From the NCBI RefSeq assembly GCF_000971475.1, contig NZ_DF967523.1:62001-126000 (forward strand): a DNA stretch of 64,000 nucleotides, read 5' to 3'. Origin of the DNA: Sulfuricella sp. T08 (GTDB lineage: Bacteria; Pseudomonadota; Gammaproteobacteria; Burkholderiales; Sulfuricellaceae). The notes beneath the pieces are model-generated. The model was not told the DNA's origin and made no database searches. It saw nothing but the letters and a program-made list of their open reading frames with translations. This document shows, piece after piece, positions 21,883 through 47,611 of this stretch. The translations under genes were made by a program, and so were the position numbers. Every line of letters starts with the position of its first letter. Within the stretch, counting starts at the first letter, position 1.

Positions 21883-23151
21883 CTATTTAAGCTTTTTGAT
21901 ACCCAGTACATTGAGGACGTACTTTTCATAAATCGGCTCGGTAGTGCCTTTTTTCATTTTCCGCAAAAAGTACTTCTCGAAGGCGATCTTGGCCAAGTGC
22001 ACCCATTTTCCTTCCTTGAACCAGTTGACGTTGCGCGGTGGGATTTGCGGCAACGCCACGAAGGCTGCACCGGTGTCGCCGAAATCTGCCAGGCAGATGG
22101 CGTTCCAGGTGGCTTTATGATCGGGAACATTGCCGTCAAGAGTAGCGCATATGTTGTGAACTGTGGCACTGACCATGCTCTCAAGCATGTAGCCGGTCTT
22201 GGGTGCGCCGGTTGGCACCGGGGTGGATTCCACCGGAGGAATGTCGACGCATACGCCCACTGCGTAGATATTGTCGTACTCGGGATTGCGCTGGTAGGGA
22301 TCGATCAGGATAAAACCGCTCTGATTGGTCAGGCCATCAATGCCGAATACCGCGTCTACGCCCTTGAAAGCCGGCAGTATCATCGAATGTTTAAAGGGTA
22401 GTTCGTGCTCCTTTTTGACGTTTCCCATGTCGTCCAGTTCGGTGACGAACATCTTGCCCGGCGCGACCCGGGTGATTATGGCGTTGCATATCCACTTGAT
22501 GTGGCGCTCGCGCATGATTGATTCCATCATCCCCCTGGAGTCGCCCACTCCGCCCAAGCCGATATGGCCGACGTAGGGTTCGGGGGTGACGAAGGTCATC
22601 GGCACCTTGTCGCGGATCTTGCGTCTGCGCAGGTCGGTTTCCATGATCATGGCGAATTCGTAGGCCGGTCCGAAGCAGGAAGCGCCCTGCGCTGCGCCAA
22701 CGACAATCGGCCCGGGATCCCTGATGAACTGGTTCCATGCCTTGCCGGCTTCGACTGCGTGATCGACGTGACAGATGGAATGTGTATTCTTGCCCGGACC
22801 GATGCCTTCTACTTCGTCGAAGGCGAGTTTCGGCCCGGTAGCGATGACCAGAAAGTCGTAATCGACGATTTGGCCGTTCGTGAGTTCGATCTGGTCTTTT
22901 TTTGGATGCACCCGTTTTGCTGGCGTGGCGATCAGGTCGATGCCATTGCGCTTGAAATAGGGGGCGATCGGAATTTCGATGTCTTCGCGGGTGCGCCAGT
23001 TGACAGCGACCCAGGGGTTGGATGGGACGAAGTGGAAATTGGGTGAATCCGAGATTACGGTGACTTTGTCCCAAGGCCTGACCTTCTCCCGCATTTCATA
23101 CGCACACGTCATGCCACCGGTGCCTGCGCCGAGAATTACGATATGTGCCAT
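21883..23151 (-). CDS. sqr: Sulfide:quinone oxidoreductase, copy 2 (distal)
   Basis: A 422-residue FAD flavoprotein that oxidises sulfide to polysulfide and reduces quinone at the membrane face. The N-terminal dinucleotide fold is MAHIVILGAGTGGMTCAYEM. The three redox cysteines known from the Acidithiobacillus ferrooxidans enzyme (128, 160, 356) are matched by Cys127 (HSICHVDHA), Cys159 (GASCFGPAYEF) and Cys353 (WNAICLADFGDTGAAF). TPVPTGAPKTGYM and an amphipathic basic C-terminus (FEKYFLRKMKK) for membrane attachment are also present. The ATG at 23151 follows AAGGAA. It forms a unit with the 65-residue gene just upstream and is a close paralogue of the protein at 23482-24750. A FccB-type flavocytochrome subunit is less likely because no signal peptide exists. 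Confidence 0.9.
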   Translation of the reverse strand: MAHIVILGAGTGGMTCAYEMREKVRPWDKVTVISDSPNFHFVPSNPWVAVNWRTREDIEIPIAPYFKRNGIDLIATPAKRVHPKKDQIELTNGQIVDYDFLVIATGPKLAFDEVEGIGPGKNTHSICHVDHAVEAGKAWNQFIRDPGPIVVGAAQGASCFGPAYEFAMIMETDLRRRKIRDKVPMTFVTPEPYVGHIGLGGVGDSRGMMESIMRERHIKWICNAIITRVAPGKMFVTELDDMGNVKKEHELPFKHSMILPAFKGVDAVFGIDGLTNQSGFILIDPYQRNPEYDNIYAVGVCVDIPPVESTPVPTGAPKTGYMLESMVSATVHNICATLDGNVPDHKATWNAICLADFGDTGAAFVALPQIPPRNVNWFKEGKWVHLAKIAFEKYFLRKMKKGTTEPIYEKYVLNVLGIKKLK

Positions 23152-23215
23152 ATGCACGGGTTCCTTGGGGTTAATGCCGTTGTTTTCAGGGTGATCAGTT
23201 TCGTACGATAAGGGA

Positions 23216-23481: not shown

Positions 23482-24750
23482 TTATTTTTTCTTCTTGATG
23501 CCGAGCACGCCGAGTACGTATTTCTCGTAAATCGGTTCGGTGGTGCCTTTTTTCATTTTCCGCAAAAAGTATTTCTCGAAGGCGATCTTGGCCAGATGCA
23601 CCCACTTGCCTTCCTTGAACCAGTTGACGTTGCGCGGCGGAATCTGCGGCAATGCCACGAAGGCGGCGCCGGTGTCGCCGAAATCGGCCAGGCAGATGGC
23701 GTTCCAGGTGGCCTTGAAATCCGGCTCCTTGCCGTCGAGTACTGCGCGGATATTGTGTACCGTGGCGGTGACCATAGTTTCGATCATGTAGCCGGTCTTG
23801 GGCGCGCCGGTTGGCACTGGAGTGGCTTCCACCGGCGGAATGGCGACACACACGCCGATTGCGTAAATATTATTGTATTTCGGGTTGCGCTGGAACGGAT
23901 CGATCAGGATGAACCCGCGCGGGTTGGCCAAGCCCTCGATCCCGAATACGGCATCCACGCCCTTGAAGGCCGGCAGCATCATCGAGTGCTTGAACGGCAG
24001 TTCGTGCTCCTTCTTGACGTTGCCCATGTCGTCCAGTTCGGTGACGAACATCTTGCCCGGCTCGACCTTGGTGACCTTGGCATTGCAAATCCACTTGATG
24101 TGGCGGTCGCGCATGGCGGACTCCATCAGTCCCTTGGAATCTCCCACGCCGCCTAGTCCGAGATGGCCGATATAGGGTTCAGCGGTGACAAAGGTCATCG
24201 GTACCTTGTCGCGGATCTTGCGTCTGCGCAGGTCGGTGTCCATGATCATGGCAAATTCATAGGCAGGCCCATAGCAGGAAGCCATCTGCGCGGCACCCAC
24301 TACGACTGGGCCCGGATCCCGTATGAACTGCTCCCATGCCTTGCCGGCTTCGACTGCGTGATCGACGTGGCAGATGGAATAAGTGTTTTTGCCCGGGCCC
24401 ATGCCCTCTACTTCGTCGAAGGCGAGTTTCGGGCCGGTGGCGATGACCAGGAAGTCATAGTCGATAATCTGGTCGTCGGTCAGTTCGATCTGGTTTTTTT
24501 CTGGGTGAACGCGCTTCGCCGGTGTCGCGATCAGGTTGATGCCCTTGCGCGCAAAATAGGGCGCGATGGGAATGGTGATGTCTTCCTTGGTGCGCCAGTT
24601 GACGGCGACCCAGGGGTTGGAAGGGGTGAATTGGAATAATGGTGAGTCTGAAATGACGGTAACCTTGTCTTCGGGGCGAACTTGCTCCCGCATTTCGTAT
24701 GCGCATGCCATGCCGCCGATGCCTGCTCCGAGAATTACGATATGTGCCAT
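23482..24750 (-). CDS. sqr: Sulfide:quinone oxidoreductase, copy 1 (promoter-proximal)
   Basis: A 422-residue SQR, same length as the distal copy and differing by scattered substitutions only, with no insertion or deletion seen. The FAD motif (MAHIVILGAGIGGMACAYEM), the three catalytic cysteines (YSICHVDHA, MASCYGPAYEF, WNAICLADFGD), the quinone-site region and the basic C-terminus (VLGVLGIKKKK) are intact, so both copies should be active. It is preceded by a 65-residue gene and by a sigma-54 type promoter at 25051-25066, which makes it the directly controlled copy. It transfers electrons from sulfide to the quinone pool. Confidence 0.9.
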   Translation of the reverse strand: MAHIVILGAGIGGMACAYEMREQVRPEDKVTVISDSPLFQFTPSNPWVAVNWRTKEDITIPIAPYFARKGINLIATPAKRVHPEKNQIELTDDQIIDYDFLVIATGPKLAFDEVEGMGPGKNTYSICHVDHAVEAGKAWEQFIRDPGPVVVGAAQMASCYGPAYEFAMIMDTDLRRRKIRDKVPMTFVTAEPYIGHLGLGGVGDSKGLMESAMRDRHIKWICNAKVTKVEPGKMFVTELDDMGNVKKEHELPFKHSMMLPAFKGVDAVFGIEGLANPRGFILIDPFQRNPKYNNIYAIGVCVAIPPVEATPVPTGAPKTGYMIETMVTATVHNIRAVLDGKEPDFKATWNAICLADFGDTGAAFVALPQIPPRNVNWFKEGKWVHLAKIAFEKYFLRKMKKGTTEPIYEKYVLGVLGIKKKK

Positions 24751-25141: not shown

Positions 25142-25229
25142 CAGTATAGTCATTCATGGGGAATGTTTTTTCGGCTTGCTGAGGCGATAACTTTTTGATT
25201 TGCATGGCGGCTTAGGCATGACTATACTG
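25142..25229. repeat. 12-bp inverted repeat framing the divergent regulatory region
   Basis: CAGTATAGTCAT at 25142-25153 is exactly inverted as ATGACTATACTG at 25218-25229. Each arm lies inside the corresponding TGACA-N3-TGTCA site, so the two operator blocks form one large mirror-symmetric control region of about 130 bp between the divergent genes. Confidence 0.7.
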
Positions 25230-25234
25230 TGTCA

Positions 25235-25247
25235 TGACAATTTGTCA
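25235..25247. promoter_or_regulatory. Palindromic activator site 2 (TGACA-N3-TGTCA)
   Basis: TGACAATTTGTCA repeats the arms of site 1 with another 3-nt centre. It ends 15 nt before the ATG of the sigma-54 activator, so occupancy could also repress the activator's own gene. Confidence 0.7.
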
Positions 25248-25262
25248 TGGAGCGGCGCCAAA

Positions 25263-26633
25263 ATGAACGATCTTTCTCTCGATTTGCAATCCCTGATCAA
25301 TATCCAGGAAAATCCATTCGTCTTGATCGATAAGGATTACCGTGTGGTTTCTGCAAATCATGCTTATTGTCAGGTATATGGCATGAGTCCGGATGAGATT
25401 GTGGGTCGCTTGTGTCACGAAATTTCTCATCATTCCTCCGTGCCCTGCCACGAGAACGGCGAGGTCTGCCCACACCAGAAGGTATTTGCAACCGGTGAGG
25501 CTTGCCAGGTACTGCATATTCATTACGACAATGATAATCGTGCCGAGCGGGTGCGCCTCAAGGGGTATCCGATTCACGGGCGGGACGGTTGCCTTTACTT
25601 GGGCGAGGCCATCGTGCCGTTGGGGTCTTCGGAAGAGCTGGATTGCGACGAAATGCGCATGATCGGTCATTCGCCCGCCTTTCTGGAGTGTGCGGACAAG
25701 CTGGGTCGTGTGGCCGAGTCGGATGCACCGATACTGCTGTATGGGGAAAGTGGCGTCGGCAAGGAACTGGCGGCGGAATTCGTACACAAGCGTTCGACCC
25801 GGGTGGGGCGTCCATATGTCTCAGTCAATTGCGCTGCTATCGCCGAATCGGTGTTCGAGAGCGAATTCTTCGGCCACGAGCGCGGAGCTTTCACGGGCTG
25901 CATCGGCCGCAAGCAAGGTTTGTTCGAGCTGGCGGATGGCGGCACGCTGTTTCTCGATGAAATCGGGGAAATTCCTCTTTCCATGCAACCCAAACTACTC
26001 CGCGTGCTGGAAACAGGTGAATACCGTCGGGTGGGGGGTACGGTAAACCTGACGGCGGATGTGCGGGTCATTTCCGCCACAAACCGAAATTTGCTGGAGC
26101 GGGTGGATCAGGGCTTGTTCCGCGAGGATCTGTACTACCGGATAGCGGGTATTGATGTCATGCTTCCATCGCTGCGCGAGCGCCGTCTAGATATTCCTGC
26201 GCTGGCTGATGCATTGCTTGCCCGCATCAGCGGGGTAGGGAAGAATGTGCCAAGATTTGCTGCAGACGCTATTTCACGCTTGATGAGCTATGATTATCCC
26301 GGCAATGTGCGCGAGCTGCGCAATGTTTTGCAGAAGGCGATTGCTTTGTCCGGCAAGGGGATGATTCATGCTAGGCATATTCAATTTGACAGCCTGAACG
26401 GGGACAAAGCACAGCCGGTAGCGCGGGAGAGGCTGTCTGAGGGTAATCCGGTGCTCCTCACCGTAGCGGTTACTCCCTCTTCCCTCTCTATTGAGGAAAT
26501 GGAAATCCGCCATATTTGCGAGCTGCTGAAACATCACGGCGGCCATCGCCGCACAGTGGCGGATATACTTGGCATCAGCGAGCGTACGTTGTATCGTAAA
26601 CTGAACCGCTACGGGCTGCATTCGGAGAAGTGA
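25263..26633 (+). CDS. Sigma-54-dependent Fis-family activator with Cys-rich PAS domain
   Basis: A 456-residue enhancer-binding protein. Residues about 1-120 form a PAS domain (ENPFVLIDKDYRVVSANHAYCQVYG) with an unusual cluster of Cys and His (RLCHEISHHSSVPCHENGEVCPHQK, TGEACQVLHIHY) suited to bind a metal or sense redox/sulfur. The AAA+ domain has Walker A LYGESGVGKELAA, the sigma-54 contact GAFTGC at residues 208-213, Walker B LFLDEIGEI and the arginine-finger region. The C-terminal Fis-type helix-turn-helix is GGHRRTVADILGISERTLYRKL. The ATG at 25263 has GGAG about 11 nt upstream. It is divergent from the SQR units and is followed directly by a Crp/Fnr regulator. Confidence 0.92.
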   Translation: MNDLSLDLQSLINIQENPFVLIDKDYRVVSANHAYCQVYGMSPDEIVGRLCHEISHHSSVPCHENGEVCPHQKVFATGEACQVLHIHYDNDNRAERVRLKGYPIHGRDGCLYLGEAIVPLGSSEELDCDEMRMIGHSPAFLECADKLGRVAESDAPILLYGESGVGKELAAEFVHKRSTRVGRPYVSVNCAAIAESVFESEFFGHERGAFTGCIGRKQGLFELADGGTLFLDEIGEIPLSMQPKLLRVLETGEYRRVGGTVNLTADVRVISATNRNLLERVDQGLFREDLYYRIAGIDVMLPSLRERRLDIPALADALLARISGVGKNVPRFAADAISRLMSYDYPGNVRELRNVLQKAIALSGKGMIHARHIQFDSLNGDKAQPVARERLSEGNPVLLTVAVTPSSLSIEEMEIRHICELLKHHGGHRRTVADILGISERTLYRKLNRYGLHSEK

Positions 26634-27386: not shown

Positions 27387-27599
27387 ATGAAAGCAAACGT
27401 GGGTGGAATTGACAGGGTACTTCGCATCGTGGCCGGGATAGTATTGCTGGCTTTGGTGTTCGTTCTCAAGAGCGAAGACGGCCTGTGGCTGTGGGGTCTG
27501 ATCGGCGTCGTGCCACTGGCCACCGGGCTGATGAACTGGTGCCCGGCCTATAGTCTGTTCGGCATGAGCACTTGCCAGGTGGAAGAAAAAAAGAAGTAA
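27387..27599 (+). CDS. DUF2892 inner-membrane protein
   Basis: A 70-residue protein with two hydrophobic segments (IDRVLRIVAGIVLLALVFVL and WLWGLIGVVPLATGLMNWCPAYSLFG), matching the DUF2892 family, which is also fused to rhodanese in YgaP. Two Cys residues (NWCPAYSLFG, STCQVEEK) follow the pattern of the family. The ATG at 27387 has GGAGG 8 nt upstream; the ATG at 27372 overlaps the ribosome site. In sulfur oxidisers it often accompanies sulfide or rhodanese genes, so a role with sulfide or sulfane sulfur at the membrane is possible. Confidence 0.85.
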   Translation: MKANVGGIDRVLRIVAGIVLLALVFVLKSEDGLWLWGLIGVVPLATGLMNWCPAYSLFGMSTCQVEEKKK

Positions 27600-27869: not shown

Positions 27870-28586
27870 ATGATTCAATCCCGACGCAATTTCTTGCGCG
27901 CCTTGCCGGCCATCACCGTCGGAGCGGCGTTGGCTCCGGCTCCGGCAATCGCTTCGGCGGCAGGGGAAGAGGAGGGCAAGCATCGCTGGGCGATGGTGGT
28001 CGATGTGCAAAAATGCATCGGCTGCCAAGCCTGTACGGTGTCCTGCATCATGGAAAATGCCGTGCCGGAGAACAGTTTCCGCACCATCGTTTCCACTTAC
28101 GAGGTGCACGAAGGTAAGCATACCGGCACCTACATGTTGCCGCGCTTGTGCAACCATTGCGCTAATCCGCCCTGTATTCCGGTGTGCCCTGTGGGTGCAA
28201 CCTTTCAGCGCAAGGACGGCGTGGTGGTAGTCGATGGCGACCGGTGCGTCGGCTGCGCCTACTGCGTGCAGGCTTGCCCTTACGACGCGCGCTTCATCAA
28301 CCACGAAACCGGCAAAGCGGATAAATGCACTTTCTGCGCACATCGGGTTGATGCCGGGCTGTTGCCGGCCTGTGTCGAAACCTGCGTGGGCGGAGCGCGC
28401 ATCTTTGGTGACCTCAACAATCCGAACAGCAAAGTCCGCCACCTGGTCGATCAGAACAAGATGAAAGTGCTGAAACCGGAAATGGGCACACAACCCCATG
28501 TATTTTATCTTGGCCTGGACGAGCGCTTCCAGGGGCGCGTCGAGGGCGAAGGTACTTTATGGCAACCAAGCGGACACGGAGCTTAA
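27870..28586 (+). CDS. ttrB: Tetrathionate reductase iron-sulfur subunit TtrB
   Basis: A 238-residue electron-transfer subunit with a Tat signal (SRRNFLRALPAITVGAAL) and four [4Fe-4S] cysteine groups: CIGCQACTVSC, CNHCANPPCIPVC, CVGCAYCVQAC and CTFCAHRVDAGLLPACVETC. It carries electrons from the quinol-oxidising TtrC to the molybdenum subunit TtrA on the periplasmic side. A strong AAAAGGAGG precedes the ATG. The gene order ttrB-ttrC-ttrA and the adjacent ttrS/ttrR genes are those of the Salmonella ttr locus, which decides for tetrathionate over the related polysulfide/thiosulfate reductases. Confidence 0.9.
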   Translation: MIQSRRNFLRALPAITVGAALAPAPAIASAAGEEEGKHRWAMVVDVQKCIGCQACTVSCIMENAVPENSFRTIVSTYEVHEGKHTGTYMLPRLCNHCANPPCIPVCPVGATFQRKDGVVVVDGDRCVGCAYCVQACPYDARFINHETGKADKCTFCAHRVDAGLLPACVETCVGGARIFGDLNNPNSKVRHLVDQNKMKVLKPEMGTQPHVFYLGLDERFQGRVEGEGTLWQPSGHGA

Positions 28587-28589
28587 ATC

Positions 28590-29729
28590 ATGGACAGCCA
28601 AATCATCGAAGTACTCAACGTTACGCGCGAAACCGCCTGGCTGCCGTGGGCAGTGCAGTATTTTTTCCTGATCGGGCTCAGTTACGGCAGCTTTATGCTG
28701 ACACTGCCGTATTTTGTCTTCGGTCGCGCACAGTACGAAAAGCTTGGCCGTTTGGCCCTGCTCGGTGCGCTGGCCTGCGGACTGACGGCGCCCGTCGCCC
28801 TGCTGGCCGACCTGCACGGTCCGGGGCGTTTCTTGAATTTTTACCTGCATTTCCAGCCTCAATCCTGGATGTCGTGGGGTTCATTCTTTATCCCGGTTTA
28901 CCTTGTCGGCTTGCTGCTCTATGCATGGTTGGCGTTGCGCGGAGATTTTGCCGTGCAGGGCCAAGGCGGCGACTCATTACTGACCCGCCTCTATCGCCTT
29001 GCCGGGCGTGGCGGCGTAGCGCCGCGAATGGCCATTTCCGCCGCAGCCTTGCTGACTCTGGTGGGCGCCGTGCTGGTGGCACTATATACCGGCATGGAGG
29101 TGATGGTTGTTCACGCCCGCCCGCTGTGGAATACGGCTTTCCTGCCACTGCAGTTCGCGGCAACCGCCTTCGCCGGTGCAATCGGTTTGGCCCTGTTGTT
29201 CAACCGGTTTGTCGGTGACCATGATACCCAGCTGGAAATTGGCCTCAACCGCCTTCTTGTGCTCGCTCTAGCGGTAGTACTGACGCTGGGCGGGGGATGG
29301 CTTTTCGTCAGCCTGTCCGGGGTGAGTCCCTCGCACAGCGCCGCCTTCAGCCAGGTGGCAGGCATGCCGCAATGGCAGCTGACCGCAGTGTGGGCGGTGC
29401 TGGCAACGATCCTGCCGATGGCGCTGGCCATCTGGCGTCCGGCCTCAAGCGGCCTGATTACCGGGCTGATTGCCGTGCACAGCGCATGGATGATGCGCTG
29501 GACCATCTTCATCGGCGGCCAGTCTATCCCTAAAACCGGCGCCGGTCTTTATGATTACCATCTGCCACTCGGCGGTGACGGCCTGCTCGGCATAGTCGGC
29601 ACGCTGGGTTTGTGGATCGCGCTGCTGGTATTGATGGTGGATTATTTGCCATGGGCCGGACAGGCGTTTGCCAGCCGCAACAAAAAAGAAACCAACGCAC
29701 TCGCCACCAGCGCGATTGCTCAGCACTAA
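28590..29729 (+). CDS. ttrC: Tetrathionate reductase membrane subunit TtrC (NrfD family)
   Basis: A 379-residue polytopic membrane protein of the NrfD/PsrC family with about nine helices (YFFLIGLSYGSFMLTLPYFVF; LACGLTAPVALLADL; AAALLTLVGAVLVALYTGMEV; LAVVLTLGGGWLFVSL; GIVGTLGLWIALLVLMVDY). It oxidises quinol and passes electrons to TtrB. The start lies 3 nt after the ttrB stop with GGAG in the ttrB tail. LADLHGPGRFLNFYLHFQPQSWMSWGSF is the family's signature loop. Confidence 0.88.
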   Translation: MDSQIIEVLNVTRETAWLPWAVQYFFLIGLSYGSFMLTLPYFVFGRAQYEKLGRLALLGALACGLTAPVALLADLHGPGRFLNFYLHFQPQSWMSWGSFFIPVYLVGLLLYAWLALRGDFAVQGQGGDSLLTRLYRLAGRGGVAPRMAISAAALLTLVGAVLVALYTGMEVMVVHARPLWNTAFLPLQFAATAFAGAIGLALLFNRFVGDHDTQLEIGLNRLLVLALAVVLTLGGGWLFVSLSGVSPSHSAAFSQVAGMPQWQLTAVWAVLATILPMALAIWRPASSGLITGLIAVHSAWMMRWTIFIGGQSIPKTGAGLYDYHLPLGGDGLLGIVGTLGLWIALLVLMVDYLPWAGQAFASRNKKETNALATSAIAQH

Positions 29730-29739
29730 GGAGATTAGC

Positions 29740-32700
29740 ATGGAAGACAAACGTCGTTCGTTTCTGCGCAAGGCCGCGATAGGCGGCGGTCTCACCGCTT
29801 TTGCCGCGGGCTTCTCGACCACGGCCGGAAGAATGCTCGACCACGTGCTTGGCAAGGACCAGCCGAAGCAGCGGTTGAATGGTAATTCGCTGGCACCCGA
29901 GTTCAGCGTAAATCCCGCCACCGGTGCGCTGAGCATCAACCCGGAACAGCAGGTCAGCTACACCATGTGCACGGGCTGCACCACCTTCTGCGGCGTGCGG
30001 GTGCGCATCGACAAAAAAACCGGCAAGGTGTTGCGCGTGGCAGGAAATCCGTACAGCCCGATGTCGGCCGATCCGCCGCTGCCATTCCAGACGCCGATCC
30101 GCGAAAGCTTCGTGTCGCTCACGCGCTATGAGGAAAAAGGCCTGGCGGGGCGATCCACCGCCTGCGGGCGCGGTAATGCCGTGCTCGAGCAAATGGATTC
30201 GCCGTTTCGCGTGCTGGCCCCGATGAAGCGCGTCGGCCCGCGCGGCAGCAGCCAGTGGCAGCCGATCGAGTTCGACCAGTTGATCAAGGAGATCGTCGAA
30301 GGCGGCAACCTGTTCGGCGAGGGCGAGGTGCAGGGATTACGCGCCTTGCGCGACCTGGAGACGCCGATCGACGCGCAGCAGCCCGAACTCGGCGCCAGGG
30401 TCAATCAGGTCGGCCTGATGGCCAGCACCAACGAGGGCCGCCTTGCCTTTGTCGACCGTTTTATCAAGCAATCCTACGGCAGCCTCAACATGGTGGGACA
30501 CGGCTCCTACTGCGGCGGTGCTTATCGCAGCGGCTCGGGGGCGATGTTCGGCGACATGAAGAAAATGCCGCACGCCAAGCCGGACCTGGAAAACGTCGAG
30601 TTCTGCATCTTCATCGGGACTGCGCCCGGCAATGCTGGCAACCCATTCAAGCGACAGGGCACGCTGATTGCCAAGGCGCGCTCGGGCAATAAGCAGTTCA
30701 GCTACGTGGTGGTCGATCCGGTGCTGACCAATGCCGACAGCTTGGCCGCCGGCGACCGCAGCCGCTGGGTGCCAATCAAGCCCGGCACCGACGGCGCCTT
30801 GGCGATGGCGATGATACGCTGGATTATCGAGCAGGAACGCTACGACCGGCATTACCTCGTCCAGCCCAACCTCAAAGTGGCCGAGGCGTCCGGCGAAGCG
30901 AGCTGGAGCAATGCCACGCACTTGGTGATCGTCCAGCCGGGCCATGCGCGTGACGGCCGCTATTTGCGCGGTTCCGACTTGGGCATGGTCTTCCCCGAAG
31001 AAGAACGCTACAAGGACAAGGACCCCTTCGTCGTGTTCGATCAGGTGGCGAAGAAGCTCGTCGTTCACACTGAAGCCAGGGGTGTGGCAGAGCTGTTCTT
31101 TGACGGCGAGGCACAGGTCGGTGCGGATACGCTCAAGCTCAAAAGCGCGATGAGCCTGCTGCGTGAAGAAGCGTTGAAGCACAGCCTGGCCGACTATTCC
31201 GCCGCCTGCGGTGTGCCGCTGGAGATCATCGAGGGACTGGCGCGCGAATTCACCAGCCATGGCAAACGTGCCGCTGTCAACGCGCATGGCGGCATGATGT
31301 CCGGCAGCGGATTTTACAACGCCTATGCGGTGGTGATGCTGAATACTCTGATCGGCAATCTCAACCGCCAGGGGGGTACCCTGGTCAGTGGAGGCAGTTT
31401 CAAGGATGTCGGTGAAGGGCCGCGCTACAATCTGGAAAATTTTGCCGGCGAGGTCAAGCCGAGCGGCATCCCGATCGGACGCAACGTGCCCTACGAAAAG
31501 ACTTCCGAGTTCAAGCGCAAAAAGGAAGGCGGCAAGGCCTACCCGGCGCAGGCACCGTGGTATCCGAATGCCCCCGGCCTGGCGTCCGAATGGCTGACCA
31601 GCGCGATCAACGGCTATCCCTATCCGCTCAAGGCCTTGATCCTGTGGAGCTGCAATCCGCTTTACGGCGTGCCGGGACTGCGCGCGCAAATCGAAAAAGA
31701 TCTGGTCGACCCGAAGAAGCTGCCGCTGATCGTGGCAGTCGACCCATTTATCAATGAAACCTCGGCCTTTGCCGACTATATCGTGCCGGATTCGCTGCTC
31801 TATGAAAGCTGGGGCTGGGCTGGCGCCTGGGGTGGGGTGGCGGTCAAGATGAGCACGGCGCGCTGGCCGGTGGTCGAACCCAAGGCCCAGAAGCTGCCGG
31901 ATGGCCAGGCGATCGGCATGGAAACCTTCTTCATCGCGCTGGCCAAGGCCATGCAATTGCCCGGCTTCGGCCCGACCGGCCTCGCCGACAACGAAGGCCA
32001 GCCCTGCTCGCTGGAGCGCCCCGAGGACTGGTATCTGCGCGGGGGTGCGAATATCGCGTGGCAGGGCAAGACGCCGGTGCCGGAAGCGAGCGACGAGGAT
32101 ATCGAACTGTCCGGCGTGGCCCGTATCCGTCCCCTGTTGGAAAAAACACTCAAGCCCGAAGAGTGGCGCAAGGTGGCTTTCATGCTGGCGCGGGGCGGAC
32201 GGTATCAGAACTACAAGGAAATGTTCGGCCTGCGCTTACCACCTCCGGCCGATCCCAAAGCGCATGCCGCGCCAGCAGGGGCCGTCTTGGCCAAAACCTC
32301 CACATCTGCCGGCATCAAGTCGCTGGCAGCGGCGACGGTGGCAGGCGCTGCCGTCCACGCGGTGAAGGAGGAAGCGCCTTACCCATCTGACTGGGCCACG
32401 CATCGCTACACCAAGCCCATGATGCTCTATAACGAAAACGTTGGCACCACCAAAAATAGTTTCACCGGCAAGCGTTTTTCCGGCACTCCATCGTGGCACG
32501 AACCAGCTTTCGCCGACGGCACGCCGGTACGCAAGAAGTACCCCGAGGCGGAATGGCCGCTGCAATTGATCAGCTACAAATCGCCGCTGCAAAACTCTTA
32601 CAGCATCGGTGCACGGCGCTTGCGTGGCATTCACCCCGACAACCCGGTGGCGCTGCATCCGGACGATGCGGCTCGACTGGGCTTGCACAGCGGCGACCAG

Positions 32701-32991
32701 GTCTATCTCGAAACCCCGGGAGGGCGCGCCAAGGCGACGGTGATTCTGCGCCACGGCGTGCAGCGCGGAGTAGTTGCGGTTGAGCACGGTTTTGGCCATC
32801 GCGAGCTCGGTGCACGGGCGCATCGCATCGGTGACAAAGTGCAGCCGCACGAGCCGGCGATTGCTGCCGGCATCAATCTCAATGATATGGGATTGAGCGA
32901 CCCGACCCGCAACGGACGCAACGTGTTCGTCGACCCAGTGGCGGGAACCACTGTGCGGCAGGGTTTGCCGGCGCGTCTGGTGCGGGCGTGA
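29740..32991 (+). CDS. ttrA: Tetrathionate reductase molybdopterin subunit TtrA
   Basis: The catalytic subunit, 1083 residues, exported by a Tat signal (MEDKRRSFLRKAAIGGG). The FS0 cluster ligands are Cys77, Cys80, Cys84 (MCTGCTTFCGVRV) and Cys142 (TACGRGN). The molybdenum ligand is probably Cys258 in GHGSYCGGAYRSGSGAMFG, a motif typical of TtrA. IGTAPGNAGNPFKRQG, NAHGGMMSGSGFYNAY, LWSCNPLYGVPG and a C-terminal molybdopterin-dinucleotide domain (NPVALHPDDAARLGLHSGD) complete it. It reduces tetrathionate to two thiosulfates. The ATG at 29740 has AAGGAG 6 nt upstream. At about 800-860 there is an Ala-rich insert (PKAHAAPAGAVLAKTSTSAG) before the last domain. Confidence 0.9.
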   Translation: MEDKRRSFLRKAAIGGGLTAFAAGFSTTAGRMLDHVLGKDQPKQRLNGNSLAPEFSVNPATGALSINPEQQVSYTMCTGCTTFCGVRVRIDKKTGKVLRVAGNPYSPMSADPPLPFQTPIRESFVSLTRYEEKGLAGRSTACGRGNAVLEQMDSPFRVLAPMKRVGPRGSSQWQPIEFDQLIKEIVEGGNLFGEGEVQGLRALRDLETPIDAQQPELGARVNQVGLMASTNEGRLAFVDRFIKQSYGSLNMVGHGSYCGGAYRSGSGAMFGDMKKMPHAKPDLENVEFCIFIGTAPGNAGNPFKRQGTLIAKARSGNKQFSYVVVDPVLTNADSLAAGDRSRWVPIKPGTDGALAMAMIRWIIEQERYDRHYLVQPNLKVAEASGEASWSNATHLVIVQPGHARDGRYLRGSDLGMVFPEEERYKDKDPFVVFDQVAKKLVVHTEARGVAELFFDGEAQVGADTLKLKSAMSLLREEALKHSLADYSAACGVPLEIIEGLAREFTSHGKRAAVNAHGGMMSGSGFYNAYAVVMLNTLIGNLNRQGGTLVSGGSFKDVGEGPRYNLENFAGEVKPSGIPIGRNVPYEKTSEFKRKKEGGKAYPAQAPWYPNAPGLASEWLTSAINGYPYPLKALILWSCNPLYGVPGLRAQIEKDLVDPKKLPLIVAVDPFINETSAFADYIVPDSLLYESWGWAGAWGGVAVKMSTARWPVVEPKAQKLPDGQAIGMETFFIALAKAMQLPGFGPTGLADNEGQPCSLERPEDWYLRGGANIAWQGKTPVPEASDEDIELSGVARIRPLLEKTLKPEEWRKVAFMLARGGRYQNYKEMFGLRLPPPADPKAHAAPAGAVLAKTSTSAGIKSLAAATVAGAAVHAVKEEAPYPSDWATHRYTKPMMLYNENVGTTKNSFTGKRFSGTPSWHEPAFADGTPVRKKYPEAEWPLQLISYKSPLQNSYSIGARRLRGIHPDNPVALHPDDAARLGLHSGDQVYLETPGGRAKATVILRHGVQRGVVAVEHGFGHRELGARAHRIGDKVQPHEPAIAAGINLNDMGLSDPTRNGRNVFVDPVAGTTVRQGLPARLVRA

Positions 32992-33189
32992 CGGGAGGGC
33001 CGGGCTTGCCCGACAGCAGGTGGGGGTGCTCTTGCGCGGCTTATCCGGTCCTCATAAAGAAATATGCCGAGCATCGCCTAATCGAGGGCTAATCAAAATC
33101 TTCCGGAATGCCGCGTCAAATATGACTTTTGGCGCGGTCGATAGTGTTTTCTCGCGTATCCAATTTTCAACGTCAACCAAGGAATTAAA

Positions 33190-33711
33190 ATGAAACCAAT
33201 GTCGCACTTTGCACGAAAACTTTTCCTTTCCACTCTCATGGCTTCCGCCATTAGCATGCCTGCCATTGCCGAACAGCCGGCGCCTGCACCCCAGATCCGG
33301 ATCGACGTCCCGGTCGCACTAAAACAGGCGAAGGTCGTTTTCAACCTGGACCATGCCGCATTTAGCGGCGATACCCCTGTTGGTCTCAAGCACATGAACC
33401 TGATGCTGGAACGGTTCAAACAGGCCGGTACCGAGTCGAGCCTGGTTGCTGTTTTCCATGGGGATGCCGGATACATGCTGCTTAACGACGAAGCTTACAA
33501 TGCGGCGCGCAAGACCAGCACCGGCAACCCCTACAAGGGCATGGTCGAAGACCTGATCAAGCAGGGTGCCCAGATCGAGGAATGCGTTGTCACCATGAAA
33601 GCCAATAAGTGGGGCAATGAGAACCTGTTGCCCGGGGTGAAGGTGAATTCCGGTGCACTCGGACGGATCGTGCAATTGGTGCAGGAAGGCTACGTGATGA
33701 TCCAGCCATAG
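33190..33711 (+). CDS. Periplasmic DsrE/DsrF-like protein of the ttr locus
   Basis: A 173-residue protein with a signal peptide (FARKLFLSTLMASAISMPAIA) and a DsrE/F-like domain: KQAKVVFNLDHAAFSGDTPVGLKHMNLMLERFKQAG, LVAVFHGDAGYMLLNDEAYN, and the cysteine region KQGAQIEECVVTMKANKWGNENLLPGVKVNSGALGRIVQLVQEG. Only one Cys (EECVVTM) remains in the mature part, placed as in DsrE-type sulfur carriers. AAGGAATTAAA precedes the ATG. It follows ttrA by 198 nt and precedes two thioredoxin-fold genes, so it may handle sulfane sulfur in the periplasm near tetrathionate reductase. Confidence 0.82.
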   Translation: MKPMSHFARKLFLSTLMASAISMPAIAEQPAPAPQIRIDVPVALKQAKVVFNLDHAAFSGDTPVGLKHMNLMLERFKQAGTESSLVAVFHGDAGYMLLNDEAYNAARKTSTGNPYKGMVEDLIKQGAQIEECVVTMKANKWGNENLLPGVKVNSGALGRIVQLVQEGYVMIQP

Positions 33712-33722
33712 GGAGGCTGGGC

Positions 33723-34550
33723 ATGCTGACAGTGAATCTGGGCCCCCTCCCCGTGCCGATCACCCTGTTGCTGATGATGGTGGCTCTGCTAGTTGCGGCT
33801 GGGGTTGGCCGCCTAGTCGGGCGTGGTCAGCAAACGGGCATAGGCAACATCTTGACCGACATGCTGATCGCAGCTGTGCTGGTGGCACGCATCGCCTTCG
33901 TTGCCATCTGGTTCGACACTTACCGCGGCACGCCCTGGTCCATGCTCGATATCCGCGACGGCGGCTTCACTCCGTGGGCCGGGGTGGCGGCGGCGTTGCT
34001 GGTGGCGATCTGGCGGGGCTGGCGCCGTGCGGCACTACGCAAACCGCTGACACTGGGGCTGGCGGCAGGGGCGATTGCCTGGGGAGCGATGTTCGGGGCG
34101 ATACTCATGATGGACAATACGGCTCTGCCCAAGGTGGCGTTGACGACGCTTGCGGGCGAGCCGGCAGACCTCGCTGCGCTGGCTGCCGGCAAGCCCATGG
34201 TCGTCAACTTGTGGGCCAGCTGGTGCCCTCCATGCCGGCGCGAAATGCCGGTGCTCGCCGCCGCGCAAAAACAGGAAACGGAAGTGCGCTTTGTCTTTGC
34301 CAACCAGGGCGAAGATGGGACGACAGCCCAGCATTATCTCACCGCCGCTCGACTCGATCTCGCCAACGTTCTGCTCGACCACGGCGCCGGAGTCGGCCGG
34401 GAGGTTGGCTCCATGGCGTTGCCAACCACACTTTTCTACGACGCCAACGGACGGCTGATCGATACCCACCTGGGCGAGCTATCGGCCGCCTCGCTGGCGA
34501 GTAAATTAAACCAGCTGCGCTCGCGTAAAAACCTCTCAAATAAGGAGTGA
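33723..34550 (+). CDS. Membrane-bound TlpA-like thioredoxin with polytopic N-terminus
   Basis: A 275-residue protein with four hydrophobic N-terminal helices (ITLLLMMVALLVAAGVG, NILTDMLIAAVLVARIAFVAIW, WAGVAAALLVAIW, LGLAAGAIAWGAMFGAILMM) followed by a periplasmic TlpA/ResA domain with active site VVNLWASWCPPCRREMPVLAA and the cis-Pro motif MALPTTLFYDANG. The membrane part resembles the prolipoprotein-transferase-like anchor found in some TlpA proteins. It lies 11 nt after the DsrE-like gene and 7 nt before the DsbG-like gene, so the three form an operon for periplasmic thiol/disulfide or sulfane chemistry. A CPPC pair favours reducing activity. Confidence 0.85.
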   Translation: MLTVNLGPLPVPITLLLMMVALLVAAGVGRLVGRGQQTGIGNILTDMLIAAVLVARIAFVAIWFDTYRGTPWSMLDIRDGGFTPWAGVAAALLVAIWRGWRRAALRKPLTLGLAAGAIAWGAMFGAILMMDNTALPKVALTTLAGEPADLAALAAGKPMVVNLWASWCPPCRREMPVLAAAQKQETEVRFVFANQGEDGTTAQHYLTAARLDLANVLLDHGAGVGREVGSMALPTTLFYDANGRLIDTHLGELSAASLASKLNQLRSRKNLSNKE

Positions 34551-34557
34551 ATCACCC

Positions 34558-35325
34558 ATGATTAAAAACCCATACGTTCTGTTTGCCGCTTTGTTGGCCT
34601 TGCTCGGCATGACCCTGGGTGCACATGCGAAAGACTGGCCGGCTCCGATCAAGGCGCTCGAAGCCCGGGGTGTTGAGGTGATAGGCACCTTTGCTGCGCC
34701 AGGCGGGCTGACCGGCTATGCCGGCATGATCGAGCAACAGCCGCTGGCCATCTACCTGACCGCCGACGGCAAACAGGCGATCATCGGCTCCATGACCGAC
34801 GCAAAAGGGGCCAACCTGAGCCAGGAACCGTTGGACAGGCTAGTCAGCAAACCCATGACCGGGAAAATCTGGAAGCAGCTTGAGAAGAGCGCCTGGATTG
34901 CCGATGGCGGTAAGAATGCCCCGCGTGTCATCTACACGTTTACCGACCCTAACTGCCCCTACTGCAATAAGTTCTGGAATGATGCCCGACCCTGGGTCAC
35001 TGCCGGCAAGGTGCAGTTGCGTCACGTCATCGTCGCCATCCTGACAGATACCAGCGCGGGCAAGGCGGCGGCACTGCTCTCTGCCAAGGATCCGCAAGTC
35101 GCCCTGACCCAACACGAACAACAGCATGCCAGTGGTGGCGTCAAGCCCTTGGGCCAGATATCGGCAACAGTTCGCGCGCAGCTCGACGCCAACCAGAGAT
35201 TGATGCAGCAACTCGGGGCCTCTGCCACTCCGACCATCTTCTACAAGGATGCCAGCGGCAATCTGCAAAAGATACAAGGAGCGCCATCGGCAGAGGCGCT
35301 GACCCAGATTCTTGGCCCGCGTTGA
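34558..35325 (+). CDS. Thiol:disulfide interchange protein DsbG-like
   Basis: A 255-residue periplasmic protein with a signal peptide (VLFAALLALLGMTLGAHA) and the DsbC/DsbG layout: an N-terminal dimerisation segment (LEARGVEVIGTFAAPGGLTGYAGM) and a thioredoxin domain with active site FTDPNCPYCNKFWNDARPW and cis-Pro ATPTIFYKDASGN. DsbG-type proteins reduce sulfenylated or misbridged cysteines and need reducing power from a membrane partner; the TlpA-like gene 7 nt upstream could supply it or use it. It is the last gene before the convergent ttrR. Confidence 0.88.
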   Translation: MIKNPYVLFAALLALLGMTLGAHAKDWPAPIKALEARGVEVIGTFAAPGGLTGYAGMIEQQPLAIYLTADGKQAIIGSMTDAKGANLSQEPLDRLVSKPMTGKIWKQLEKSAWIADGGKNAPRVIYTFTDPNCPYCNKFWNDARPWVTAGKVQLRHVIVAILTDTSAGKAAALLSAKDPQVALTQHEQQHASGGVKPLGQISATVRAQLDANQRLMQQLGASATPTIFYKDASGNLQKIQGAPSAEALTQILGPR

Positions 35326-35363
35326 GCCTGGGCGGTTCATGAAAAAGCTCGATCAGGCCTTCC

Positions 35364-35993
35364 TTAATGCGAGCCAGGATGGCCCGCTTTGGCCTCCATC
35401 AACAGATGGGCGATTTCCGCCGCCGAATGCACACCCAGCTTTTCCATCGTGTTATGGCGGTGCACCTGGACGGTCTTGTCACTGATGGCCATCTCGCGGG
35501 CGATGATTTTGTTGGGCTTGCCGGCGGCCATCAACTCCGCCACCTCGCGTTCGCGCGCGGTCAAAGTCGCCAGAGCGGTTTGTGCTGTGCGGGTTTGTGT
35601 ACTGATCCGGCCCTCCTCAATGCTGCGCTGCACCGCGCGCGTAACCGCATCGAGCAATACCTGATCCTTGCATGGCTTTTCGATAAAATCGCAGGCACCG
35701 GTTTTCATCGCCTGTACTGCCATGGCTAAATCACCATGGCCGGTCAGAAAGATGATGGGTAGATGTACGCCATGATCTTTGAGCGTTTGTTGCAGCTCCA
35801 ATCCGCTCATCAGGGGCATGCGCACGTCGAGCACCAGGCAGCCGGGCACATGTCCGTCGTAACGGTCGAGAAAATCATGCGCCGACTCGAAAGACGCTAC
35901 ATGCCATCCCGCCGAATCGAGCAGATAAACCAGCGAGCGGCGCATCGCCGCATCATCGTCGACCACAAATAGCACCGCATCGCGTTCGTTCAT
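35364..35993 (-). CDS. ttrR: Response regulator TtrR (FixJ/NarL type)
   Basis: A 209-residue response regulator with receiver (LFVVDDDAAMRRSL, phospho-Asp56 in CLVLDVRMPLMSG, FLTGHGD, FIEKPC) and a C-terminal LuxR-type helix-turn-helix (LTAREREVAELMAAGKPNKI, AISDKTVQVHRHNTMEKLG). It overlaps ttrS by 4 nt (ATGA). The pair, with TtrS having a periplasmic binding domain, matches the tetrathionate-sensing system that activates ttrBCA. The start at 35993 is chosen over an upstream extension inside ttrS because MNERDAVLFVVDDD is the usual beginning. Confidence 0.88.
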   Translation of the reverse strand: MNERDAVLFVVDDDAAMRRSLVYLLDSAGWHVASFESAHDFLDRYDGHVPGCLVLDVRMPLMSGLELQQTLKDHGVHLPIIFLTGHGDLAMAVQAMKTGACDFIEKPCKDQVLLDAVTRAVQRSIEEGRISTQTRTAQTALATLTAREREVAELMAAGKPNKIIAREMAISDKTVQVHRHNTMEKLGVHSAAEIAHLLMEAKAGHPGSH

Positions 35994-37792
35994 ATACCTT
36001 CCTGTAATTCTTCTCTCGGCAGGCTGAACCACACCGTCAGCCCTGCATTGTTATCGTTGGCCACAGCCGACAGCGTTCCTCCAAGCGATTCGATAATGCT
36101 TTTGCTGAGCGATAAACCCAAGCCGAGGCCCTCGGGTTTGGTGGTGAAGAACGGTTCGAACAGGTGCGCGAATTGTTCGGGCTTAAGCCCGCAACCGGAA
36201 TCGCGTACGGTGACGAGATAGGTGCTGGCTTCCACCCGGAACCGCGCCTCGATCGGTTCCTGTGCATGGCCGGCGGTCTGCTGCGCATCCAGCGCGTTTT
36301 TCAGCAGATTGAGCATGACCTGCTGGATCTTCACGGGGTCGGCCAACACCTTGGCGCGTTGTGTCGCGTCGGGTTGCCAAATAACGCGCGCTTGCGGATG
36401 GGTGCCGGTGAAAAGGGCGATGGCTTCACCCAGGACGGCTATCAGATCGACCGACTTCTGTTCGGATGCTCTTTTTTGGGCGAAAGCGCGGATGTTCCGA
36501 ATGATGCTTGCCGCCCGCTCGCTTTGCGTGACGATTTCGCCGGTTCCGTCCAGCAAGGGCGCAGGCTCCAATCGACCTGCTGTAATGCGCCGCGCCATGC
36601 CGCGGGCGAAGTTGCGGATCGCCGCCAGCGGCTGGTTCAACTCGTGCGCGATCGCGCTTGCCATTTCACCGAGAATGGCCAGTCGCGCGGTATGGTCGAG
36701 CGTGGTTTGACGCAAGAGCGCCTCTTCTGCCATGCGGCGCTGTTCCTCCTGCGCGGCGCGCAGCGCGCGGGTGCGCTGACTCACCAGGTGTTCAACGCGC
36801 ACGGTATGCACTGCCCAAACGACCAACAAAGTCAGAATCAGCAGCAGCCAGCCCCAGTAGCGCCGCAGCAAGCCCTCGAAGGTCCATAGACGCAAATAGG
36901 CATAGGGGCCGATTTTCAGTTCGCGGAACAGTTCGTCGACAACCTGATAATCGGCGGGTACGGCCCAACTATAGCCATCCGCGGTACGCGGCATACGCAA
37001 CAAGGCGATGGCCACTTGCTTGGACAGTTCCGCCGGGGTATGACGCAAGGCGGCGAACGGCCAGTCGGGGTATAAGCGTGACGATGTTTGGCACTGGAAG
37101 CCCTTGGCGGCGATCGGCGCCAGCACACGCAACTCCCCGGCGCCGATCTCGCCGCTGCGGATCATCTGCTCAAGCAGGCAGGTGCGAATGATGCCGGCGT
37201 CAGCTCGGCCGGCACGAACTGCATGCACGATTTTTTGAATCGGGAAACCCGTAAACTGCAGATTGGCGAGATCATGCTCAGGATCGACACCGGCTTCCAG
37301 CAATTCGCGTGCAGCGATCTGGTAACCCCCGAACGCATCCGGGTCAACCGCCAGCACATGCTTGCCGGCCAAATCCGCCAATGTGTGCAAGCGCGCATCG
37401 TCGCGCACCACGATTGCCGATCCGATCGATTGCCTTGGTGACAGGGCCCAAGGCGACTCGATGGTCGCGATGCGACTGGCACCATCGCTATGTTCGAGGG
37501 CGACGTAGTGGCCGCTGCTGGTGATGACGAAATCAACGGCCCGTTCATGCACCGCACCCGTCAGCCCGGCTTGGTCGAAATCAAGCAGAATGAAACGATG
37601 GCCCGGAATGCTGTCCACAAGCCAATTCCTGACATATGACCAATCCGCCTGTACCGCCTCGGCACCTTTATAGGCCAGCACACCGATCCGTACCGTAGTC
37701 GCATTGCTTGCGTCCGCGTGGGATGTCTGGAGCAGCAGGGTCACGCCCATCAAGAAAAAGCCAAGCCGGTAGAGTGGTCGCAGAAAGAGCAT
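35990..37792 (-). CDS. ttrS: Tetrathionate sensor histidine kinase TtrS
   Basis: A 600-residue membrane sensor. After an N-terminal signal/anchor (LGFFLMGVTLLLQTSHA), residues about 32-295 form a PhnD-like periplasmic binding domain (VRIGVLAYKGAEAVQADWSY, LADLAGKHVLAVDPDAFGGYQ), the tetrathionate-binding part in known TtrS. A transmembrane helix lies at about 313-330, then a coiled coil, HisKA with His383 (SAIAHELNQPLAAIRNFA) and HATPase (LNLLKNALDAQQ, DSGCGLKP, GLGLGLSLSKSIIES). It is convergent with the ttrBCA-dsrE-tlpA-dsbG genes and presumably controls them. Confidence 0.88.
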   Translation of the reverse strand: MLFLRPLYRLGFFLMGVTLLLQTSHADASNATTVRIGVLAYKGAEAVQADWSYVRNWLVDSIPGHRFILLDFDQAGLTGAVHERAVDFVITSSGHYVALEHSDGASRIATIESPWALSPRQSIGSAIVVRDDARLHTLADLAGKHVLAVDPDAFGGYQIAARELLEAGVDPEHDLANLQFTGFPIQKIVHAVRAGRADAGIIRTCLLEQMIRSGEIGAGELRVLAPIAAKGFQCQTSSRLYPDWPFAALRHTPAELSKQVAIALLRMPRTADGYSWAVPADYQVVDELFRELKIGPYAYLRLWTFEGLLRRYWGWLLLILTLLVVWAVHTVRVEHLVSQRTRALRAAQEEQRRMAEEALLRQTTLDHTARLAILGEMASAIAHELNQPLAAIRNFARGMARRITAGRLEPAPLLDGTGEIVTQSERAASIIRNIRAFAQKRASEQKSVDLIAVLGEAIALFTGTHPQARVIWQPDATQRAKVLADPVKIQQVMLNLLKNALDAQQTAGHAQEPIEARFRVEASTYLVTVRDSGCGLKPEQFAHLFEPFFTTKPEGLGLGLSLSKSIIESLGGTLSAVANDNNAGLTVWFSLPREELQEGI

Positions 37793-42673: not shown

Positions 42674-42711
42674 AGCGAACTCTGATTTTGTTGATGAAGG
42701 AAAATATCGCC

Positions 42712-43053
42712 ATGTTTGGATCCAATATGTTCGGCATCAAGGAAATTGATGTTGCTGGGCTGCACTCCCTGTTGAGCGAGAAAAAGAATCTCGCCCTGGT
42801 GGATGTGCGCAGTGATAACGAAGTTGCTTATGGTGTGATCGAAGGTGCGCTACATCTGCCCTTGCACCTGTTGCCGATCAAAGCTGACGAGCTCGACAAG
42901 GATGTCCATACCGTCTTCTATTGCCGTTCAGGCGCGCGTTCGGCGCAGGCCTGTGCCTTCATGGCTGCCAAGGGACACGACAACGTGTATAACCTGCAGG
43001 GCGGCATTATTGCCTGGGCGCAGTCCGGTCTGGCGATCGCCAAGGCGGCTTGA
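42712..43053 (+). CDS. Single-domain rhodanese-like sulfurtransferase
   Basis: A 113-residue cytoplasmic rhodanese. The active-site loop is FYCRSGARSAQA with Cys71; DVRSDNEVAYGVIEGALHLP is the other family landmark. It can pick up sulfane sulfur and hand it to TusA. The ATG at 42712 (MFGSNMFGIKEID) has AAGGA 10 nt upstream; earlier in-frame codons overlap that site. It opens the rhd-tusA-dsrE set that in sHdr-type sulfur oxidisers precedes the hdr-lbpA genes. Confidence 0.9.
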   Translation: MFGSNMFGIKEIDVAGLHSLLSEKKNLALVDVRSDNEVAYGVIEGALHLPLHLLPIKADELDKDVHTVFYCRSGARSAQACAFMAAKGHDNVYNLQGGIIAWAQSGLAIAKAA

Positions 43054-43079
43054 TTTTTGTCAGGGAATTGTCGCGGCTG

Positions 43080-43108
43080 TTGCAATTTGCTCTTATCTAT
43101 ATTATAAA
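43080..43108 (+). promoter_or_regulatory. Probable sigma-70 promoter for tusA
   Basis: TTGCAA (43080-43085) and TATAAA (43103-43108) are spaced by 17 nt, a near-consensus pair, 45 nt upstream of the tusA ATG. It would allow tusA and dsrE to be made strongly and independently of the rhodanese gene. Confidence 0.65.
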
Positions 43109-43153
43109 ATCCTTTTTTACATCTAAACCCACCACTTTAGGAGACTAAGAAAA

Positions 43154-43381
43154 ATGAATTTCGATAAAGAATTGGACGCCAGCGGCCTGAACTGCCCCCT
43201 GCCCATCCTGCGCACCAAGAAAGCTCTCGCCGAATTGACTGCCGGTCAGGTGCTGAAAGTGATTGCCACCGACCCGGGTTCCGTCAAGGATATGCAGGCC
43301 TTTGCCAAGCAGACCGGCAACGAGTTGCTGTCTTCTGCCGAAGCAGGCGGCAAGTACCAGTTCTTCATGAAGAAGAAATAA
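43154..43381 (+). CDS. tusA: Sulfur carrier protein TusA
   Basis: A 75-residue sulfur carrier. The persulfide-forming Cys14 is in the family motif LDASGLNCPLPILRTKKAL; VIATDPGSVKDMQAFAKQTGNEL and FFMKKK complete the fold. It has its own likely promoter and a GGAG ribosome site. In chemolithotrophs TusA moves sulfane sulfur between rhodanese, DsrE and the sulfur-oxidising enzyme. It could equally support MnmA-dependent tRNA thiolation. Confidence 0.95.
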   Translation: MNFDKELDASGLNCPLPILRTKKALAELTAGQVLKVIATDPGSVKDMQAFAKQTGNELLSSAEAGGKYQFFMKKK

Positions 43382-43439
43382 TAAAATAGTAGCTTGAACA
43401 AACAAATAATAACTATCTACAACCTGGAGGCAACAAAAC

Positions 43440-43946: not shown

Positions 43947-43976
43947 TGTATGCCGGCAGGTTGAGCTGATACAGTC

Positions 43977-44010
43977 AAAAAAGGGCAGGCGATATCGCCT
44001 GCCCTTTTTT
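43977..44010 (+). terminator. Terminator between dsrE and lbpA
   Basis: GGGCAGGCGAT and ATCGCCTGCCC form a perfect palindrome flanked by an A-run and six T residues, so it can terminate in both directions. It splits the rhd-tusA-dsrE genes from the lipoate genes, which start only about 20 nt downstream. Confidence 0.92.
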
Positions 44011-44032
44011 GCTTTTGAAGGGTGAGATAAGA

Positions 44033-44473: not shown

Positions 44474-44474
44474 A

Positions 44475-47610: not shown

Positions 47611-47611
47611 C

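Follow-up and report, generated by a model that had tools for sequence, protein, structure and literature searches.

Periplasmic disulfide-reductase and DsrE-family genes beside a predicted tetrathionate reductase in Sulfuricella sp. T08

In Sulfuricella sp. T08, the locus of a predicted tetrathionate reductase of the TtrBCA family also holds three genes for periplasmic proteins, namely a DsrE-like protein, a TlpA/DsbE-like protein with a thioredoxin fold and the disulfide isomerase/reductase DsbG, which stand between the reductase genes and those of a TtrSR-like two-component pair. We analyzed this locus within a 64,000-nucleotide stretch of the genome (contig NZ_DF967523.1, positions 62,001 to 126,000; hereafter the window) together with related loci in other genomes. 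The association of ttr genes with the tlpA family exceeds chance, and the tlpA-dsbG pair reads, from its sequence and surroundings, as a remnant or partial derivative of a periplasmic disulfide-reductase module (DsbRS with dsbD-dsbE-dsbG). Our preferred reading, held tentatively and at something short of even confidence, is that a ttr island recruited part of this module along with a DsrE-family carrier, and that these would work as a periplasmic clearance system for thiols attacked by tetrathionate, which is a strong thiol oxidant.

Association of tlpA and dsrE with ttrA and tsdA

A sequence-only reading of the window had tied the three extra genes to the reductase, and co-occurrence with ttrA across genomes proved positive for both tlpA and dsrE. 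An order-level sample of 399 genomes contained ttrA in 15, tlpA in 29 and both in 10; tlpA was thus present in 10/15 genomes with ttrA versus 19/384 others (Fisher 1.9e-9), or in 8/12 versus 12/146 when counted by genus (p = 5.8e-6). For dsrE, 42 genomes had a match at E<=1e-5, of which we counted the 13 with at least 48% identity, a cut placed post hoc at the gap between 48% and 35% in the match list. These comprised 7/15 genomes with ttrA versus 6/384 without (p = 3.3e-8; 6/12 versus 3/146 by genus). The thiosulfate dehydrogenase gene tsdA, present in 79 genomes of the sample, was itself associated with tlpA (14/29 versus 65/370) and with ttrA (10/15 versus 69/384), and the ttrA-tlpA association survived splitting the sample by tsdA, with 7/10 versus 7/69 among genomes that have it and 3/5 versus 12/315 among those that do not. 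At the level of the family (22 genomes), the same three genomes and no others carried tlpA and dsrE, and ttrA occurred in those three and, as a fragment, in a fourth. As a constant neighbor of ttr, dsrE was rejected, since it lies on a different contig from ttrA in four of the seven genomes that share the two (G065, G140, G178 and G299); no common partner gene of dsrE was seen elsewhere among the neighborhoods that could be read.

Physical linkage points the same way for tlpA. Of the 10 genomes having both genes, 4 carry tlpA no more than 10 kb from ttrA, and of the 14 having tlpA and tsdA, 3 show this closeness for that pair; if genes fell at random in a single genome without contig breaks, 0.055 and 0.10 genomes would be expected. 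A survey of 80 tlpA loci (the best out of 153), all in named genomes, found dsbG in 39, dsbD in 21, ttrA in 13 and tsdA in 10, with ttr genes in 14 and either ttr or tsdA in 22; as read from the locus listing, ttr or tsd genes accompany 18 of the 39 loci with dsbG versus 4 of the 41 without. When open reading frames (ORFs) neighboring tlpA were clustered without prior choice, ttrA was the top family outside the Dsb genes and regulators (12/80 loci), once families of ORFs antisense to the same genes are left out of the ranking. The linked or unlinked state changed at least five times on the TtrA tree, and the label "ttr nearby" changed nine times on a quick TlpA tree (built without L255, which is too short), so the link arose more than once. 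In at least three cases, a locus of one sample and a locus of the other have identical tlpA genes (L023/L251, L044/L252 and L027/L246) and are apparently the same record, so the 80-locus and 399-genome samples are not independent.

In two loci (L043 and L256), tsdA, its cytochrome, a regulator pair, Dsb genes and ttr stand all together. The TsdA-like protein of L043 matches solved thiosulfate dehydrogenases; all other tsdA genes were called by their similarity to this protein. A tsdAB-DsbG-QseB-like neighborhood has been published for Halomonas, in passages that give no mechanism (PMC9237845), and there too Dsb genes and an OmpR-type system adjoin a tetrathionate/thiosulfate enzyme, as in L043, L086 and L256; the Halomonas enzyme, however, is the heme protein TsdA, absent from the window genome, whereas the window encodes a molybdenum Ttr. 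We rejected the idea that the Dsb genes are cytochrome c maturation helpers for TsdA, because the same genes accompany Ttr, which has no heme c domain among its Pfam matches, and because the window genome lacks TsdA. The factor common to both settings is tetrathionate and thiosulfate rather than cytochrome maturation.

Origin of the Dsb and DsrE genes

In the nearest relatives of the window locus (L009 and L010) and in Glaciimonas (L043), an OmpR-type regulator and kinase, dsbD, tlpA and dsbG follow on the 3' side of ttrA. This set lies between ttrA and ttrRS in L010 and L043 and after ttrA in L009, and its dsbD product passes the NCBIfam DsbD model. The same regulator/kinase-dsbD-tlpA-dsbG order characterizes the DsbRS-DsbDEG module of Pseudomonas, a likeness drawn from published descriptions and not from Pseudomonas sequences. 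The window shares with that module the order tlpA(dsbE)-dsbG; it lacks the dsbRS pair and an orthologous dsbD that L009, L010 and L043 possess, and what remains sits inside the ttr locus. The best DsbD of the window genome, a 44% identical protein, is encoded on another contig.

The position of dsrE varies. In the window and in L011 it immediately precedes tlpA, the whole dsrE-tlpA-dsbG set of L011 being placed beyond ttrS; in L010, dsrE itself lies beyond ttrS. A partial dsrE copy of 252 bp, 89% identical to the window gene, directly follows dsbG in two relatives (L009:11603-11854 and L011:7175-7426) and is a trace of tandem rearrangement. Given this varying placement and these partial copies, we take the window order to be a recent shuffle and not an old operon. 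The three genes do not, therefore, form the extension of the ttr locus that the sequence-only reading had seen in them, at least not a fixed one, since tlpA-dsbG appear to stem from a separate module and dsrE lies elsewhere in the closest relatives; a fixed dsrE-tlpA-dsbG operon unit was likewise rejected by the arrangements in L010 and L011.

L012, L016 and L054 encode DsrE-family proteins of other subtypes next to either tlpA or the dsbD-tlpA-dsbG set. In the last of these, from Polaromonas, a different DsrE-like gene (L054:1644-2255) comes after tlpA and the gene of a Dsb-type isomerase with a CPFC motif, just upstream of ttrSR, making this a second, distinct DsrE-TlpA-Dsb set at a ttr locus. 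Another Polaromonas locus has a rhodanese-type sulfurtransferase gene (L020:8766-9743) between ttrA and tlpA, the slot held by dsrE in the window, and an Azospirillum ttr locus has the thiol-reducing trxC between the regulator gene and ttrB (L209:5389-5832).

The full module of P. aeruginosa is reported to respond to copper, not to tetrathionate, with DsbRS controlling dsbDEG (PMC10141476, PMC9233671, PMC13101516), which frames a serious rival to thiol clearance. The Dsb genes might constitute a copper or oxidative disulfide-stress module that became a neighbor of ttr through shared metal- and sulfur-rich habitats and genomic islands, with no common chemistry. The relatives' adjoining regulators, which resemble QseB/PmrA and QseC/heavy-metal sensor types, would fit such a history, as would the presence of ttrA, tlpA and dsrE in the same three family genomes, as if acquired jointly; yet several branches of the TtrA tree show linkage to ttr, the link reaches tsdA too, and the window has kept tlpA-dsbG beside ttr without dsbRS and dsbD. 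We consider this alternative improbable but not to be taken lightly.

The reductase, its regulators and the three additional proteins

All eight ORFs of the locus are intact and stand where, and in the order in which, the sequence-only reading had placed them: ttrB-ttrC-ttrA, then dsrE-tlpA-dsbG, then ttrR and ttrS in convergent orientation (Table 1). The ATG of MEDKRRSFLRKAA, within ORF 29668-32991, is the probable start of ttrA, as judged by eye. Only 11 bp separate dsrE from tlpA and 7 bp tlpA from dsbG, with 38 bp between the convergent dsbG and ttrR. The gap between ttrA and dsrE measures 198 bp; a scan of it found no terminator on the + strand, and a promoter-like site there was no better than chance.

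Table 1. Genes of the ttr locus, with positions counted from the first nucleotide of the window
Gene and product	Position	Strand	Evidence
ttrB, Fe-S subunit, Tat-type start	27870..28586	+	NCBIfam TtrB 348.7 bits (cut-off 416), top of 47 families; Pfam Fer4_11
ttrC, NrfD-type membrane anchor	28590..29729	+	NCBIfam TtrC 193.5 bits (cut-off 314); Pfam NrfD
ttrA, molybdopterin catalytic subunit, Tat-type N-terminus	29740..32991	+	NCBIfam TtrA 1212.5 bits (cut-off 1750); TtrA clade 100/100
dsrE-like, periplasmic single-cysteine protein (C132)	33190..33711	+	Pfam DsrE; DsrE fold; C132 invariant 17/17
tlpA/dsbE-like, N-terminal Lgt-like membrane domain and C-terminal CPPC thioredoxin fold	33723..34550	+	Profile and fold matches
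dsbG, periplasmic disulfide isomerase/reductase, CPYC	34558..35325	+	NCBIfam DsbG 350.1 bits (cut-off 124); PDB DsbG
ttrR/fixJ-like response regulator	35364..36032	-	NCBIfam FixJ 221.4 bits (cut-off 255) and TtrR 165.9 bits (cut-off 290), both below
ttrS-like sensor kinase, phosphonate-binding-type sensor domain	35990..37792	-	NCBIfam TtrS 359.1 bits (cut-off 750); PF12974, HisKA, HATPase

The TtrB, TtrC and TtrA models lead their competitors by wide margins (for TtrA, 1212.5 bits versus 157.7 for PhsA), and all three scores stay below the NCBIfam equivalog cut-offs. We therefore assign the enzyme to the TtrBCA family without calling it the enteric equivalog, and tetrathionate reduction is its predicted activity. 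An enteric protein annotated as TtrA is 48% identical to the window protein across residues 56-846, the arsenic-island relatives 34%; the PDB sequences include distant relatives only. The sequence-only reading had named a catalytic subunit branching outside TtrA as the outcome that would count against it. In two trees, the window and enteric TtrA instead fell in one clade with support of 100/100, split from a Citrobacter arsenic-island protein, two Burkholderiales paralogues and, in the first tree, a haloarchaeal protein; the second tree excludes L159 (a cut contig) and L213 (a very long branch). Neither tree includes PhsA, PsrA or ArrA, and separation from these comes from profile and PDB scores only.

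The claimed match to the enteric respiratory system thus stands for the TtrA phylogeny and for the gene set, as the enteric ttrBCA-ttrSR locus has the same five gene types, and fails for the Ttr and regulator scores and for the placement of ttrSR, which is downstream and convergent in the window versus upstream and divergent in the enteric plasmid locus. The sensor kinase (PF12974, HisKA and HATPase domains) and the regulator (Response_reg and GerE) have the domains of a TtrSR pair. Both score below the TtrS and TtrR cut-offs, the regulator matches FixJ better, and the pair may be a thiosulfate-sensing relative.

The DsrE-like protein passes the Pfam DsrE model (34.9 bits; cut-off 22.7), has the fold of that superfamily and an apparent Sec signal (by eye), and its sole cysteine, C132, is invariant in all 17 aligned relatives. 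The N-terminal membrane half of the TlpA-like protein bears a weak likeness to Lgt. All 21 members examined match PF01790, and the window protein covers positions 5-126 of the 240 in this profile; as only the first half is matched, an active transferase was rejected, and we read the domain as a probable membrane anchor. Its C-terminal half is a CPPC domain with the thiol-disulfide reductase fold of the TlpA/ResA/CcmG type. DsbG, well above its equivalog cut-off, has a CPYC site and a dimerization domain and aligns over its full length with E. coli DsbG (PDB).

A candidate periplasmic thiol clearance system

Periplasmic disulfide reductases recur beside Ttr and Tsd, whose common trait is their substrate pair, and clearance of attacked thiols is the simplest reading of this pattern. 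DsbG is a protector of single cysteines. Tetrathionate entering the periplasm would attack free thiols to give protein-S-S-SO3(-) adducts; DsbG could attack these S-thiosulfonates through its CPYC site, freeing thiosulfate, and would be re-reduced by the membrane-anchored TlpA/DsbE-like protein through CPPC, which in turn would draw on the DsbD encoded elsewhere in the genome. The single-cysteine DsrE-like protein might accept or pass on the thiosulfonate or sulfane group, while TtrBCA would respire bulk tetrathionate away. The substrates, the direction of electron flow and induction of the three genes by tetrathionate are predictions of this scheme. A partial precedent for the DsrE step comes from the Metallosphaera thiosulfate carriers DsrE3A and TusA, reported to react with tetrathionate to give Cys-S-thiosulfonates (PMC4175335). 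Like them, the window protein folds as a member of the DsrE superfamily and has one key cysteine; it differs in its periplasmic signal and its subfamily, and thiosulfate transfer by it is a prediction.

Several observations weigh against thiol clearance. Of the 10 genomes carrying ttrA and tlpA, 6 do not have the two within 10 kb of each other; neither ttr nor tsd genes are in view at 58 of the 80 tlpA loci, many of them on short contigs; and 7 of the 14 ttr-linked loci come from one lineage, Marinobacter. Counting by genus removes shared ancestry only in part. Most tlpA stretches of the order sample lack dsbG (present in 6/27), so the family to which tlpA belongs extends beyond the Dsb module. 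The enteric ttr locus we examined has no adjoining dsrE, tlpA or dsbG, and the reported signal of the full Pseudomonas module is copper.

A second alternative develops the carrier role that the sequence-only reading had considered for these proteins. DsrE would take thiosulfate or sulfane sulfur from the products of Ttr, and TlpA and DsbG would reduce it, feeding Sox or DsrE2/TusA/lipoate-linked oxidation. The sole invariant cysteine of DsrE and the way dsrE tracks ttrA (7/15 versus 6/384) suit such a sulfur relay, and potential recipients exist in the TusA, DsrE2, rhodanese and lipoate-assembly genes at 42.7-48.7 kb and in SoxB elsewhere in the genome. The window DsrE is periplasmic, however, whereas TusA and DsrE2 show no signal (by eye), the dsrE of L010 lies beyond ttrS and away from tlpA-dsbG, and TsdA was not found in the genome; we think a relay of this kind quite unlikely. 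That the genes are passive neighbors, brought together by chance rearrangement and serving general periplasmic disulfide housekeeping, is very unlikely: gene order is indeed unstable among near relatives, with partial dsrE copies after dsbG in L009 and L011, but co-occurrence and linkage far exceed expectation, and for housekeeping the genome can draw on further TlpA-like and DsbD proteins.

Thiol clearance also admits a bolder version, which we regard as doubtful. This Dsb branch (DsbG and the membrane-anchored, Lgt-domain TlpA/DsbE, whether or not DsbD and DsrE take part) could be a dedicated tetrathionate partner in Burkholderiales and Marinobacter, discharging S-thiosulfonates to thiols and thiosulfate, so that a thiol relay would account for part of the reduction of tetrathionate; what DsbRS-type systems truly sense in these bacteria would then be tetrathionate-type thiol stress and not copper alone. 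Periplasmic thiol protection in bacteria that make or respire tetrathionate is little discussed, and a recurrent link between Dsb proteins and tetrathionate, if true, would make this question testable and add another signal for DsbRS-type sensors. Each component is already known; in the open-licence literature, as far as its available passages go, we found no paper tying Ttr to Dsb or DsrE genes; for tetrathionate, Ttr or TsdA alongside Dsb, DsrE or TlpA proteins, the one remark that turned up concerns the Halomonas neighborhood above, with no mechanism given.

Sulfur-oxidation context

With SoxB (892 bits; cut-off 550), SQR-like proteins, TusA and DsrE2, the genome looks like that of a sulfur oxidizer. 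Of the SQR, TusA and DsrE genes named in the sequence-only reading, the window has an ORF resembling TusA, a gene of DsrE2 type and, in tandem, two SQR-like genes (21883-23157 and 23482-24750), whose sole match, a weak one, is to a type III SQR model (114 and 118 bits; cut-off 525). The internal cycling of tetrathionate and thiosulfate proposed there was not supported, as TsdA, the best-known tetrathionate-forming enzyme, was not found in the genome (no match better than E=2e-6), though SoxB is present.

A cluster on the + strand (42688-48733) encodes a rhodanese, the TusA-like protein (43154-43381), DsrE2, a GcvH-like protein (possibly LbpA), LipS1, a lipoate ligase, a geranylgeranyl-reductase-like flavoprotein and LipS2. 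The set resembles the portion of the sHdr sulfur-oxidation route that assembles lipoate; no hdr genes were noticed in the window. Divergent to the SQR-like pair is a sigma-54 activator gene (25200-26633, +) whose product has cysteines at 72, 83 and 90; their spacing of 11 and 7 is that of the sulfane-sulfur sensor FisR. A YeeE/TsuA-like transporter gene (14015-15199, -) scores below the cut-off of thiosulfate transporter models. Between a Crp-type regulator gene and ttrB lies a gene for a small YgaP-like membrane protein (27387-27599, +; PF11127), followed by a hairpin and T-run recognized by eye.

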